From Mesorhizobium sp. (GTDB lineage Bacteria > Pseudomonadota > Alphaproteobacteria > Rhizobiales > Rhizobiaceae): a DNA stretch of 64,000 nucleotides. Location: contig JAHBYX010000001.1 of NCBI GenBank assembly GCA_019635735.1, positions 558,001-622,000 on the forward strand, read 5' to 3'. Numbering within the stretch: position 1 is the first letter of the stretch; the number at the start of each line of letters is the position of its first letter. The translations under genes were made by a program, and so were the position numbers. The notes beneath the pieces were generated by a model that was not told the origin of the DNA, searched no databases, and saw nothing but the letters and a program-made list of their open reading frames with translations. Of this stretch, positions 25,285-30,426 are shown piece after piece.

Positions 25285-26649
25285 TCATGCGGCTTTTCGC
25301 AGTTGCACAACGGCGCGGAGCCCGCCGAGTTCCGAGCGCTCGAGCCTGAGCGTGCCGCCATATTCGGCGACCAGGTCCGAAACGATGGCGAGACCGAGAC
25401 CAGTCCCCGGTTTCGATTCGTCCAGCCGCCGGCCGCGCTTCAGCGCCTCTCGCGCCTGTTCCTCGGGAATTCCCGGCCCATCGTCCTCGATCGTCATGAC
25501 GAAACTCTCGCCGGACTCGTCGGCGGCGAGCGTCACACCCACCTGCGCCCTGCCCCACTTCATCGCGTTCTCGAGCAGGTTGCCGGCGATCTCCTCCAGA
25601 TCCTCGCGCTCGCCTGCGAACACGATGTCGTCATCGGGGTGCTCGAAGGCGACGTCGATCTTCGGGTTGAGCTTGGCCATCACCCTGGTCATCCGCTCCA
25701 GCACCGGCACCACCGGCGCGCGGAAGACCACGCTCTCGCGCTGGGCTGCGATGCGTGCACGCTGCAGATAGTGGTCGATCTGCTGTTTCATCGCACCGGT
25801 CTGCTCGGAAATCAGCCGGCCCTTGGCGCCGCCGATTGCCCTGCCCTCGTTGGTCAGCACCGCCAGCGGCGTCTTCAGCGAATGCGCCAGATTGCCGACC
25901 TGCGTGCGCGAGCGCTCGAGGATACGGCGGTTGTTCTCGATCAGCGCGTTGGTCTCGTTGGCGAGCGGCTCGATCTCGGCCGGAAAGGTGCCGTCCAGGC
26001 GCTTGGCCGTACCCTCGCGCACGCTCGACAGCGCCTCGCGCACGCGCCCCAGCGGCCTCAGCCCCAGCCAGATCGCGGCGGCGTTGATGGCGATCATGCC
26101 GGCGCCGAACAGCGCCAGGTAGGTGTAGAGCTGCTGGTTGAAGAATGAGATCTCGGCATTGAGATCGTCGAGATTGCCCATCACGCGATAGCGCGCGATG
26201 CGGTCGGTCGCGCCCAGCACCACTTCGGTTTCGAGCACGGCGAGGTTCTGGCCGTTCGGCCCGGTCGCCGTATAGCGGCGCTGGAAACCCGAACCGAAGG
26301 GCACCTCGTTCGTGGAGGGAGACGGAATCGTCGCCTGCAGCGAGGCCGAGCGCTGCTCGCCCGCCAGGCCGGCCGATTGTGGCTCGACCGACCAGTACCA
26401 GCCAGAATCCGGCGTGAGGTAGCGTTCGTCTCCCAGCTCGGGCGCGCCGGTCAGCTGGCCGTCCTCGCCCGCTCCGACCGAAGCCACGAGATTGAACAGG
26501 TTGGCCGAAAGCAGGCTGTCGAAGCCGCGCTCGCTCGCCTCGCGGAACAGCGTCGAGACGACGGTGGCGATCAACACCAGCGCCACGATCGCCCAGATGG
26601 TCGAGAAGGTGATGACACGCGCGGCGAGCGATTTCGGCAGCCAGTTCAT
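25285..26649 (-). CDS. feuQ: Sensor histidine kinase FeuQ-like
   Basis: A 454-residue inner-membrane kinase of the PhoQ-like group. Membrane helices lie at about residues 11-33 and 175-197, with a 140-residue periplasmic sensor between them. HAMP follows, then HisKA with GNLAHSLKTPL (acceptor histidine near 255) and HATPase with NLLENAMKWG, DDGPGIP and GLGLAIV. It sits 46 bases after the regulator gene and downstream of a small exported protein gene, the feuNPQ order described in Sinorhizobium, where FeuQ controls FeuP and periplasmic cyclic glucan export genes. Identity as FeuQ rests on order and type and is likely but not proven. Confidence 0.8.
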   Translation of the reverse strand: MNWLPKSLAARVITFSTIWAIVALVLIATVVSTLFREASERGFDSLLSANLFNLVASVGAGEDGQLTGAPELGDERYLTPDSGWYWSVEPQSAGLAGEQRSASLQATIPSPSTNEVPFGSGFQRRYTATGPNGQNLAVLETEVVLGATDRIARYRVMGNLDDLNAEISFFNQQLYTYLALFGAGMIAINAAAIWLGLRPLGRVREALSSVREGTAKRLDGTFPAEIEPLANETNALIENNRRILERSRTQVGNLAHSLKTPLAVLTNEGRAIGGAKGRLISEQTGAMKQQIDHYLQRARIAAQRESVVFRAPVVPVLERMTRVMAKLNPKIDVAFEHPDDDIVFAGEREDLEEIAGNLLENAMKWGRAQVGVTLAADESGESFVMTIEDDGPGIPEEQAREALKRGRRLDESKPGTGLGLAIVSDLVAEYGGTLRLERSELGGLRAVVQLRKAA

Positions 26650-26695: not shown

Positions 26696-27361
26696 TCACG
26701 CATCGGGCTCGCGCAGGCGGTAGCCCATGCCGCGCACGGTTTCGATCATGTCGATGCCCATCTTCTTGCGCAGGCGGCCGACGAAGACCTCGATCGTGTT
26801 GGAATCGCGGTCGAAATCCTGGTCGTAGAGGTGCTCGACCAGTTCGGTGCGCGACACGACCTTGCCGGCATGGTGCATCAGGTAGGCGAGCAAGCGGAAC
26901 TCGTGCGAGGTAAGCTTCAGCGGCTTGCCGTCGACGTCCGCCTTGGAAGCGGCTGTGTCGAGCCTCACCGGCCCGCAGACCAGTTCGGACGAGGCATGCC
27001 CCGCGGCGCGGCGGATAAGCGCGCGGATGCGCGCCAGCACTTCCTCGATATGGAACGGCTTGGTGACGTAGTCGTCGGCGCCGGCGTCGATGCCGGCGAC
27101 CTTGTCGCTCCAGCGGTCGCGGGCGGTCAGCATCAGCACCGGCATCTTGCGCCCGGCGCGGCGCCATTTCTCCATCACCGAAATGCCGTCCATCTGCGGC
27201 AGGCCGATGTCGAGCACGACCGCATCGTAGGGTTCGGTATCGCCGAGGAAATGTCCCTCCTCGCCGTCATAGGCGCGGTCGACGACATAGCCTGCATCGA
27301 CCAGCGCTTCGGCGAGCTGGCGGTTCAGCTCCTTGTCATCCTCGACGACGAGAATTCGCAT
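26696..27361 (-). CDS. feuP: Response regulator FeuP-like (OmpR family)
   Basis: A 221-residue regulator. The receiver domain (1-117) has acidic residues EDD 7-9, phospho-acceptor Asp51 in AVVLDIGLP, and the lysine in YVTKPFH. The winged helix (about 125-218) has LTSHEFRLLAYLMHHAG and EVFVGRLRKKMG, close to PhoP-type regulators. The ATG at 27361 starts the first receiver strand. In rhizobia FeuP activates ndvA, the cyclic glucan exporter, and was first linked to iron uptake. A strong stem-loop precedes this gene and may lower its expression relative to the upstream small gene. Confidence 0.82.
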   Translation of the reverse strand: MRILVVEDDKELNRQLAEALVDAGYVVDRAYDGEEGHFLGDTEPYDAVVLDIGLPQMDGISVMEKWRRAGRKMPVLMLTARDRWSDKVAGIDAGADDYVTKPFHIEEVLARIRALIRRAAGHASSELVCGPVRLDTAASKADVDGKPLKLTSHEFRLLAYLMHHAGKVVSRTELVEHLYDQDFDRDSNTIEVFVGRLRKKMGIDMIETVRGMGYRLREPDA

Positions 27362-27387
27362 TCGACCCCCTCTGGCATTTTCTCGGA

Positions 27388-27432
27388 CCGTGCGTCCCGG
27401 CGCCGCTCCTTCGGCGGCGGCCGGAAGCACGG
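27388..27432 (-). promoter_or_regulatory. Strong stem-loop between feuN-like gene and feuP
   Basis: Outer arms CCGTGC/GCACGG (27388-27393, 27427-27432), then CCGG/CCGG and an inner CGCCGC/GCGGCG stem with a seven-base loop give about 16 base pairs, almost all G-C. It begins two bases after the stop of the small exported protein gene and ends 26 bases before the feuP start. No U-run follows on the transcribed strand, so it is more likely an mRNA stabiliser, partial attenuator or processing site than a full terminator. Confidence 0.55.
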
Positions 27433-27434
27433 TC

Positions 27435-27722
27435 TCAATTCGCCGGCACGACCACTTCGATGCGTTCGCCGCGCTGGCCGTTCTTGCCCTGCACCACGAT
27501 GACGACGACGCAGACCTGCTGGCCGCCGCGGTTCTGCAGCGAGCCGCGCGCCTTGCCGCCATATTGCGCCGCCATCTGCTGCGCGATCGCGTTGCAATTG
27601 GCGGCGACCGGCTGGGCCAGCGTCGGCGCATGGAGAGGCACGGCCGCCGGGCCGGCAAACGCCGCCGGGGCCGATGCGAGCAGCGCGACCACGGCGCGCC
27701 TGAGGGTGAGAAGAATGTTCAT
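27435..27722 (-). CDS. feuN: Small periplasmic protein, FeuN-like
   Basis: A 95-residue protein with a signal peptide (about residues 1-23, cut after AFAG) and a short mature domain carrying two cysteines (ANCNAIAQQ and QQVCVVV), likely a disulfide. It is first in line with the FeuP/FeuQ-like pair. In Sinorhizobium meliloti a small periplasmic protein, FeuN, encoded just upstream of feuP, binds the sensor part of FeuQ and holds it inactive. Size, export and position fit this one. I infer the name from position, not from recognised sequence identity. No strong ribosome site is seen before the ATG at 27722. Confidence 0.62.
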   Translation of the reverse strand: MNILLTLRRAVVALLASAPAAFAGPAAVPLHAPTLAQPVAANCNAIAQQMAAQYGGKARGSLQNRGGQQVCVVVIVVQGKNGQRGERIEVVVPAN

Positions 27723-27770
27723 GGAGCGCGTTCTAGCGCAGATCGGCTGAACGGGGAATGAATGGGAAAT

Positions 27771-28217
27771 TCATGCCGCCTGCGCCATATCCGGCATGGA
27801 GAAACGTATGGTTTCGCCGAGCGCCTTGAATGCCGATTCGAGTTGATCCAGCCTCGACTTGTGATCGAGGCGGAACAGCCTGTCGACCTGCTCGCGGTGC
27901 CAACCCAGCCGTCGGGCCAGTTCTGCCCGGGTTACGGATTTCGCACGGCAGACGGTGTAGAGCGCGATCTTGAGATAAGTGAGGGCCGAGATTTCGACGC
28001 AGCGCGAGTCTCCGCAGGTTGCGAGCGGCGCGGGAATATCCTCGCTGTCCGACATCCGCGCGCTGATCGCCTCCTCAATGGCTTTGAGCCCGGCCACGCA
28101 AGCTTCGGCCGCTGTGTCACCAAAGGTCGTGATCTCCGGGAATGCCGGCACTGTCACCAGCCACGCAGGAGCACCGCCGTCCGTCTCGTCAATCTCAAGG
28201 GTGACTTCATAGAACAT
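27771..28217 (-). CDS. hicB: HicB-family antitoxin with C-terminal helix-turn-helix
   Basis: A 148-residue antitoxin. The N-terminal half (about 1-70) is the partial RNase H-like HicB domain (PAWLVTVPAFPEITTFGDTA, then EACVAGLKAIEEAISARM). The C-terminal half (about 75-145) is an XRE/Cro-type DNA-binding region (VTRAELARRLGWHREQVDRLF). It neutralises HicA by direct binding and represses the operon. It follows hicA after six bases. Confidence 0.92.
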   Translation of the reverse strand: MFYEVTLEIDETDGGAPAWLVTVPAFPEITTFGDTAAEACVAGLKAIEEAISARMSDSEDIPAPLATCGDSRCVEISALTYLKIALYTVCRAKSVTRAELARRLGWHREQVDRLFRLDHKSRLDQLESAFKALGETIRFSMPDMAQAA

Positions 28218-28223
28218 CGCGGT

Positions 28224-28412
28224 TCACTTTATTCCGAGATCCTTGAGGATCTTGTTGACCAGTCCCTTGCCGAGCTCTTTGCTCCCGCCATGAACCGGTA
28301 TGACCGTCTTCCGGTTTCCGCGCCGCACCGTCTGGTGGCCGCTCCCGCCACGGTGAGTCTCGAACGTGCAACCGTGCCTGCGAAGCAGCTTCATCAGCTC
28401 GGCTGAGTTCAT
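28224..28412 (-). CDS. hicA: HicA-family mRNA interferase toxin
   Basis: A 62-residue double-stranded-RNA-binding-fold nuclease. The active-site histidine lies in GGSGHQTVRRG near residue 26, and the basic strand KTVIPVHGGSKELGKGLV follows as in known HicA toxins. Free HicA cuts mRNA and tmRNA and stops growth. It is the first gene of the pair, the usual hicAB order. An operator-like palindrome begins five bases upstream of its start. Confidence 0.93.
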   Translation of the reverse strand: MNSAELMKLLRRHGCTFETHRGGSGHQTVRRGNRKTVIPVHGGSKELGKGLVNKILKDLGIK

Positions 28413-28821: not shown

Positions 28822-30285
28822 CTAGCCGCCGGTGGCGAACACCAGCCGGGCGGCGATGCCCTCGCCGGCACGGCCGACCTGGCGAAGCTCGAGTTCCAGT
28901 TCGTCCGGCAGCACCGGGAAGTCGGCGGCGACGCTGGCGGCCGGATAGGTCCATGACGGCCCGCCGACCGTGACCTGCCTGACTGCCGGCCCGCCCGGCG
29001 CCCCGATCCGCAGCACGTAGCTCTCGAACGGCTCGTCCTCGGGGATCTCGACCGCCTGCCACGAATCCGCGTCGACGCGTCCGCGCCGCACCCAGGCGAA
29101 GGCGAAGCCGCCGTCCGCCTGCCTCGTCGCGCTCAGATGCACCGGCGATAGCGGGAGTGCGGCGCGCAGGCCGCCGATATGCGGCTCGGTCACGGCATGG
29201 TCCTCGCCGAAATCTCGACCTGCCGGCGCCACCCGCCACGTCAGTTCCAGCCCCGTCTCGCCCTCGCGCAGCCCTGCAGCCTGCACGGCGCTATCCAGCA
29301 GCACGACGTCGGCGCCCGCCGCAGCACCTGCCGCCGCCGCGTCACTGGTGCCGAGCTGGCCGCGCAACAGCCGCGTCAGCCGCCAGACGCCGGGCTCGAT
29401 CTCGTCGGCCTCGGCGAACTGCACGATCTCCCAGCTTGCCGCAGTGGAGCGCACCGCAAGCACGTTGGAGCCGTTCAGCATCTGGGCCAGCGGCACGCTC
29501 GACAGCGCGCCGGCATAGAGCCCGACGACGAGCGCGCCGAACTCGTCGAGCCGACCCTCGGCGCCGGGCGGCAGTGTCTGCGCCAGTTCGCCCACGGTGG
29601 CGCGGCGCGTCAGCGTCGTGCGCAGTTCGAATCCGGTCTCGGCCGGCGAGCAGTAGACCTGCTGCGACACCCACGGCCTGGCATAGGCCGCGATCTTGAA
29701 CCGCTGATGCACCGCCTCGCCGCCCGCCATAGGCAGGTCGAGGAACAGCGCCAGCGGTGCGCCCGGCTGGACGGCACTTCGCGCGCGTTGCGGCGGCAGC
29801 CGCGCACGGTCGGGCGCCGGCGGCAGGCGCACGATCCGACGCGCCTCGATTTGCCGGGTCAGCCCTTCCTCGATCGCGCTCACCACGAACTCGCCTTGCG
29901 TCCGCCCCGGCAGCGAGACCAGGCTTCCCGGAACCGGGCCGCGCTGCCTTGCAGGCACGGCAAAGCGCGCCGTTTCGCGGCCCGTCCAGGCCCGGCGCAG
30001 CCAGTCGGCGGCGAGTGCTTCGGCCTGCCCCGCCTCCATCGCGCCGGGCAGATCGAGGCTGGCGACGTTCTGACCGCCATCGCGCACCGCGCGGCCCGAA
30101 CCCGACTGGTAGTCGTCCATCGGGTCGCCGAAGCCCAGCAGGGCCTCGGTCGGAAGGTCGAGGTCCGGCGGCCGCACCAGCTCGATCGCCGGCCGCCCGT
30201 CGTCTCCCGACACCGGGTCGTCCACGGCAAAGGCGGCGCCTGCCCAGGCCCGCGAGGTACCGGGCGAGCGCCTGCCCACGCGGCC
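28822..30285 (-). pseudogene. 5'-truncated GTA/phage host-specificity tail protein
   Basis: About 485 codons remain, matching the C-terminal part of the roughly 1300-residue tail protein that closes GTA clusters (RcGTA orfg15 type). The glycoside-hydrolase-like TIM-barrel half and N-terminus are gone. The remaining text is open throughout (for example LARATVGEL-type beta-rich modules, GFGDPMDDYQSGSGR near its start and WKIxx-like strands near the end). Homologous sequence stops exactly where one arm of an inverted repeat begins. An ATG inside the repeat (near 30309) or at 30366 could start a short product, but no ribosome site or family N-terminus is present. Confidence 0.75.
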
Positions 30286-30426
30286 GTCATCCCGGAGGCC
30301 GAAGGCCATCCGGGATCCATTCTTCTCTCCGATTACACACCGAAAACACCGAATTCGTCGCGGCATGGCAGGCGCATTTCCGCCAGCGCCAATGGATCCC
30401 GGATGGCCTTCGGCCTCCGGGATGAC
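30286..30426. repeat. Perfect inverted pair of REP-like elements
   Basis: Arms at 30286-30321 and 30391-30426 are exact reverse complements over 36 bases, with a 69-base spacer. Each arm itself contains the smaller palindrome ATCCCGGATGGCCTTCGGCC / TCCGGGAT. The element is of the CCGGGAT-TTCGGC type I know from intergenic REP-like repeats of Mesorhizobium and relatives. It fills the space between the DUF3168 gene and the truncated tail gene, the place where at least six GTA genes are missing. Confidence 0.85.

Follow-up and report, generated by a model that had tools for sequence, protein, structure and literature searches.

The window analyzed here, a stretch of 64,000 nucleotides (64 kb) from a Mesorhizobium sp. 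genome, carries on its minus strand a feuN-like gene, then a 73-nt gap, the gene of a feuP-like regulator of the OmpR type and that of a feuQ-like kinase. The genes and the sequence features around them are the following:

25285..26649, minus strand: feuQ-like histidine kinase gene; HATPase_c domain
26696..27361, minus strand: feuP-like response regulator gene; Response_reg and Trans_reg_C domains
27366..27373, minus strand: candidate ribosome-binding site AGAGGGGG ahead of feuP, from the sequence
27386..27434, minus strand: stem-loop with 21-nt GC-rich arms, starting right after the feuN stop and lacking a U-tract
27435..27722, minus strand: feuN-like gene; 95 aa, hydrophobic N terminus (putative signal peptide), two invariant cysteines
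27730..27735, minus strand: -10-like hexamer TAGAAC, 7 nt ahead of the feuN ATG, from the sequence
27748..27762, minus strand: FeuP box TTCA-N7-TTCA ahead of feuN, the motif named in PMC3616915

This arrangement has the hallmark of feuNPQ operons, a gene for a small two-cysteine protein ahead of regulator and kinase genes, and the three genes are presumably transcribed as one unit. At E 0.001, neither Pfam nor NCBIfam gave a model for the feuN-like protein; a search of 61 genomes found relatives of it in 30, and all 7 genomes of the genus have one. To compare the locus across genomes, we used the feuP match, present in 283 of 297 genomes, and took the best 80 of these 283, the most similar first. 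This order of selection biases the sample toward relatives. Two loci were left out, L022 for lack of a feuP match and L093 for failing the orientation test, and a homologue search of genome contigs gave a single locus, L041, identical to L003. In 108 of 108 upstream regions, feuP is preceded by an ORF that our own FeuN profile recognizes, and both cysteines are unchanged in all 108 FeuN relatives. The names feuN-like, feuP-like and feuQ-like, given to these genes in an earlier note on this DNA, hold on the evidence of domains, gene order, FeuN profile, cysteines and FeuP box.

Each of the 108 loci has one FeuP box, TTCA-N7-TTCA, upstream of the feuN stop. The pattern is absent from the 34,430 bases made up of the 3' region of feuN and the gap, and for other spacings between 3 and 12 the number of loci with such a box is 0 to 10. 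Such constancy supports both the feuNPQ assignment and autoregulation. In Sinorhizobium meliloti, feuN is FeuP-dependent and has TTCA-N7-TTCA (PMC3616915 and PMC12486126, partial texts). At a fixed position past the box lies a TA (T in 106 and A in 107 of the 108 loci). In the window, the FeuP box, the -10-like hexamer and the feuN ATG are tightly packed within 27722-27762 (minus strand). Given the 7 nt between TAGAAC and the ATG, the mRNA is expected to start at the ATG or a few bases from it, which would leave feuN leaderless. The feuN mRNA of the window is thus probably leaderless, unlike feuP with AGAGGGGG ahead of it. The same genome has two further sites with a FeuP box plus TA, where the first ATG lies at least 37 nt past the box; hence, a leaderless start is no general trait of box-plus-TA sites. 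These two sites (L143 and L144, contig C20) precede genes of small exported-looking proteins, one of which may resemble an L,D-transpeptidase, and are candidate FeuP targets. A literature search combining leaderless and FeuP returned PMC3616915 only, which does not prove absence from print.

The stem-loop lies at the other end of feuN. The feuN-like TGA occupies 27437-27435 on the minus strand, and the first base of the stem adjoins this stop codon. The inverted repeat consists of two arms of 21 nt each (27386-27406 and 27414-27434), 86% complementary and 7 nt apart, which come in the order 27434-27414, then 27406-27386, on the minus-strand RNA. The minus-strand RNA has a predicted MFE of -43.5 kcal/mol (z -4.95) with 21 pairs formed, a stability that 0 of 200 shuffles attained. 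When the initial 50 nt past the feuN stop were folded, z was -5.87 and 0 of 500 shuffles were as good. The earlier note had announced a strong GC-rich hairpin directly after the feuN-like stop, which fold and shuffles bear out; it had given the extent as 27388-27432 with 16 pairs, right in location and slightly short in size (27386-27434, 21 pairs). In stability the hairpin ranks 1st among 63,950 sampled 50-nt segments of the window (64 kb, both strands). In a background set of 464 kb out of the 4.96-Mb genome, where genes were called by our own simple gene caller, it ranks 1st among 91 tandem gaps of 40 to 150 nt and 2nd among gene ends with gaps of at least 30 nt. The junction hairpin is real and exceptional in its own genome. 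With the first 12 nt of the gap masked, as by a ribosome at the stop, the predicted fold of the gap falls to -24.1 kcal/mol, versus -41.8 kcal/mol unmasked.

As a class of element, the hairpin has the GC-rich stem-loop of an intrinsic terminator, and on neither strand is the stem followed by a U-tract. It was also not among the calls of a terminator scan. We therefore rejected a canonical intrinsic terminator on account of the missing U-tract and the absence from the scan. A dispersed palindromic repeat was rejected as well, the hairpin being single copy: a search for REP-like copies found none, with a self match at E 8e-30 and a next best match at E 0.013 over 23 nt. Searches with the gaps of two relatives hit, beyond their own locus and the orthologous junctions, nothing but 22- to 32-nt pieces with E 0.004 to 0.008. 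Rfam gave no match over the hairpin and three weak ones elsewhere, all under the gathering scores. What the junction does offer is a strong stem-loop between cistrons of one predicted operon, as in decay barriers of the puf and galE type. The element itself is of a common kind; what makes it interesting is its position.

How widely is this hairpin shared? A hairpin of the window type occurs at 3 of 108 feuN-feuP junctions, all from very close relatives (window genome included). Among the 102 gaps that measure 25 nt or more (6 shorter ones were left out of the fold statistics), the fold z of the first 85 nt had a median of 0.28, with 4 below -2 (L001, L003, L004 and L090); at the end of the feuN coding region, taken as a control, the median was 0.05, with 3 of 102 below -2. 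Since the gaps fold no better than shuffles, we rejected a family-wide conserved RNA element. Within the genus, the stop-adjacent hairpin is significant in the window genome (G000) and in G002 (0 of 500 shuffles as good in each) and weak in G005 (21 of 500). The gaps of these three genomes are 70 to 75% identical, and G002 retains a strong hairpin at 75%. The four remaining genus genomes (G001, G003, G004 and G006) lack a stop-adjacent hairpin. The gaps of G003 and G006, 139 to 142 nt long, fold like shuffles at full length and over the first 50 nt; the first 85 nt alone of the G003 gap reach z -3.3. In a tree of regulator and kinase (55 loci), the three hairpin genomes group together, with G003 and G006 as sisters, and the five-genome clade has a support of 0.99. 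The earlier note had proposed compensatory base changes as a check, and the outcome is weak: across the three available sequences, 1 of the 21 predicted pairs changes on both sides and 10 carry a mismatch or a gap in one sequence; covariation scoring adds a penalty (+2.11). When the substituted bases were permuted, values fell below 0.05 in 3 of the 6 comparisons between hairpin genomes and in neither of the 2 for G003 and G006. The pairing appears to be preserved in kind, not pair by pair, and the case for its maintenance is suggestive at best. The hairpin is recent and narrow, restricted to close relatives.

Two systems provide precedents for what such a stem-loop could do. In the puf operon of Rhodobacter, stabilizing elements and ribonucleases determine product stoichiometry (PMC11354728, partial text). 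Both puf and the window have a strong intercistronic stem-loop within one operon in alphaproteobacteria, as far as the available part of that paper describes it, but differential stability was measured for puf and is inferred for feuN-feuP, and the genes are unrelated. In the gal operon of Escherichia coli, the galE E-hairpin blocks 3'-to-5' exonucleases after Rho-dependent termination and, like that of the window, is an intercistronic hairpin needing no U-tract (PMC9239205, partial text). The galE hairpin has 8 pairs and lies ~100 nt past the stop, according to the same partial text, whereas that of the window has 21 pairs and lies at the stop. These precedents, with hairpins that block exonucleases or set stoichiometry, favor reading the feuN-feuP hairpin as a barrier. 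By analogy, the stem-loop may act as an mRNA-decay barrier favoring the feuN segment over the feuPQ segment in a small lineage, a tentative reading to which we give a probability of about 0.4. The FeuP-box promoter ahead of feuN would drive transcription of feuN-feuP-feuQ, and a 21-bp GC-rich stem-loop would have arisen in the 73-nt gap of this lineage, right after the feuN stop. Since the U-tract is missing, efficient release of RNA polymerase is not expected. The stem would instead block 3'-to-5' exonucleases, perhaps also serving as a pause hairpin that aids Rho, with termination beyond the stem. The feuN segment would then outlast or outnumber the feuPQ segment. We infer both the barrier function and the feuN excess, and their direction (more feuN than feuPQ mRNA) matches the idea of the earlier note. 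In favor of the barrier are the exceptional strength among tandem gaps, the exact placement at a cistron boundary, the single copy, and hairpins that are significant in G000 and G002 and weak in G005 despite 70 to 75% gap identity. Against it are the absence from the other four genus genomes and from the rest of the 108 junctions, the single two-sided pair of 21 and the mixed permutation result.

A rival reading is a neutral or near-neutral palindrome, an inverted repeat born in the ancestor of the three species and drifting in a fast-evolving GC-rich spacer. We rank this just below the decay barrier and consider it nearly as likely. It agrees with feuN-feuP gap lengths that range from 4 to 247 nt across the 108 loci, with gaps that overall fold like shuffles, with the little covariation and with the weak G005 hairpin. 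It accounts less well for the strongest 50-nt fold of the window being also the strongest among tandem gaps, and for a G002 hairpin still strong at 75% gap identity. A partial terminator without U-tract, an attenuator that would end some transcripts past feuN, has a long GC-rich stem in the right place to recommend it. We nevertheless hold it to be improbable: CGAGAAAATG follows the stem on the minus strand (TCAATTCG on the plus strand) and forms no U-tract, several other strong gene-end hairpins of the same genome bear T-runs 3' of the stem, and the terminator scan passed over this one. The missing U-tract also speaks against a classical attenuator.

Alternatively, the feuN:feuPQ balance could be set by other means, leaderless feuN being made from the FeuP-box promoter and feuP led by a ribosome site, with an internal feuPQ promoter in one clade and the hairpin a side matter. 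This reading overlaps with the others, and we regard it as somewhat doubtful. It draws on the conserved TA at -10 spacing and on the first in-frame feuN ATG, which lies 24 to 27 nt past the FeuP box in 92 of 108 loci, but it must accommodate the 16 of 108 loci where that ATG is placed elsewhere. It also draws on a promoter-like element ahead of feuP: the pattern TT[TC].C-N15-19-CTATA, which was shaped after the gaps had been inspected, occurs in 20 of 108 gaps, whereas it was absent from all 108 control stretches and averaged 0.07 across 200 base shuffles. All 20 gaps belong to a single 30-tip clade of the midpoint-rooted tree that does not include the hairpin genus, and the element is missing from the genus of the window. 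It looks like an internal feuPQ promoter. The gaps with TTTCC-N16/17-CTATA are L009, L011, L042, L043, L045, L046, L047, L048, L051, L054, L055, L057, L058, L060, L062, L067, L068, L069, L077 and L080. Leaderless-type spacing and promoter-like element bear more directly on expression balance than the hairpin. The junction might even work as a valve, adjusted lineage by lineage, on a two-component system that inhibits itself: leaderless feuN would be expressed from a conserved FeuP box, and the gap would re-set the feuPQ supply, by way of an internal promoter in one clade and of a hairpin for decay or pausing in another. We think this broader view unlikely.

Why would such a balance matter? FeuN, a periplasmic protein, binds FeuQ and keeps signaling from becoming hyperactive, a state that costs viability (PMC12486126, partial text). 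Since S. meliloti loses viability when FeuN no longer restrains FeuQ, the proportion of inhibitor to kinase should be important, at least on what the accessible part of that work reports. The word essential rests on S. meliloti papers only, and another of these reports essentiality of feuNPQ as specific to a strain without pSymA and pSymB. The S. meliloti operon resembles that of the window in its small modulator, regulator and kinase, and the portions of PMC3616915 and PMC12486126 at hand do not mention a feuN-feuP hairpin. A literature search for feuN and hairpin gave, among the matches listed, titles that were nearly all unrelated, and absence from print is not proven by it. The dbfQRS system of Vibrio cholerae is similar by description, with an autoregulated small periplasmic regulator gene right before a two-component pair; a junction hairpin goes unmentioned in the part of PMC12714742 available. 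The earlier note had seen in the hairpin a structural basis for the stoichiometry of the circuit. This is unsupported, as 3 genomes share the hairpin and 108 of 108 loci share the gene order; its absence elsewhere contradicts a general role in stoichiometry. A lineage-local effect on the feuN:feuPQ ratio is possible, and the hairpin may fine-tune expression in a few close relatives without being a general part of the circuit. Should it shift the feuN:feuQ ratio, we would have a recent example of a decay barrier that tunes the stoichiometry of an operon. The comparison also cautions against ascribing a single conspicuous hairpin to the circuit at large, and it reveals features of feuN expression that are more widely conserved.

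Other parts of the window gave a few additional observations. Just upstream of feuN lies a HicA-type toxin gene (28224-28412, minus strand), beside a weak HicB-like partner that stays below the cut-off (27771-28217, minus strand). Further on, 28822-30366 (minus strand) encodes a protein whose Rcc01698_C and Phage-tail_3 domains suggest that it belongs to a phage tail cluster or to one resembling a gene transfer agent. Finally, a very strong hairpin at 1539-1600 occupies a 60-nt convergent gap, where the RNA of either strand is stable, and is perhaps a shared two-way terminator.
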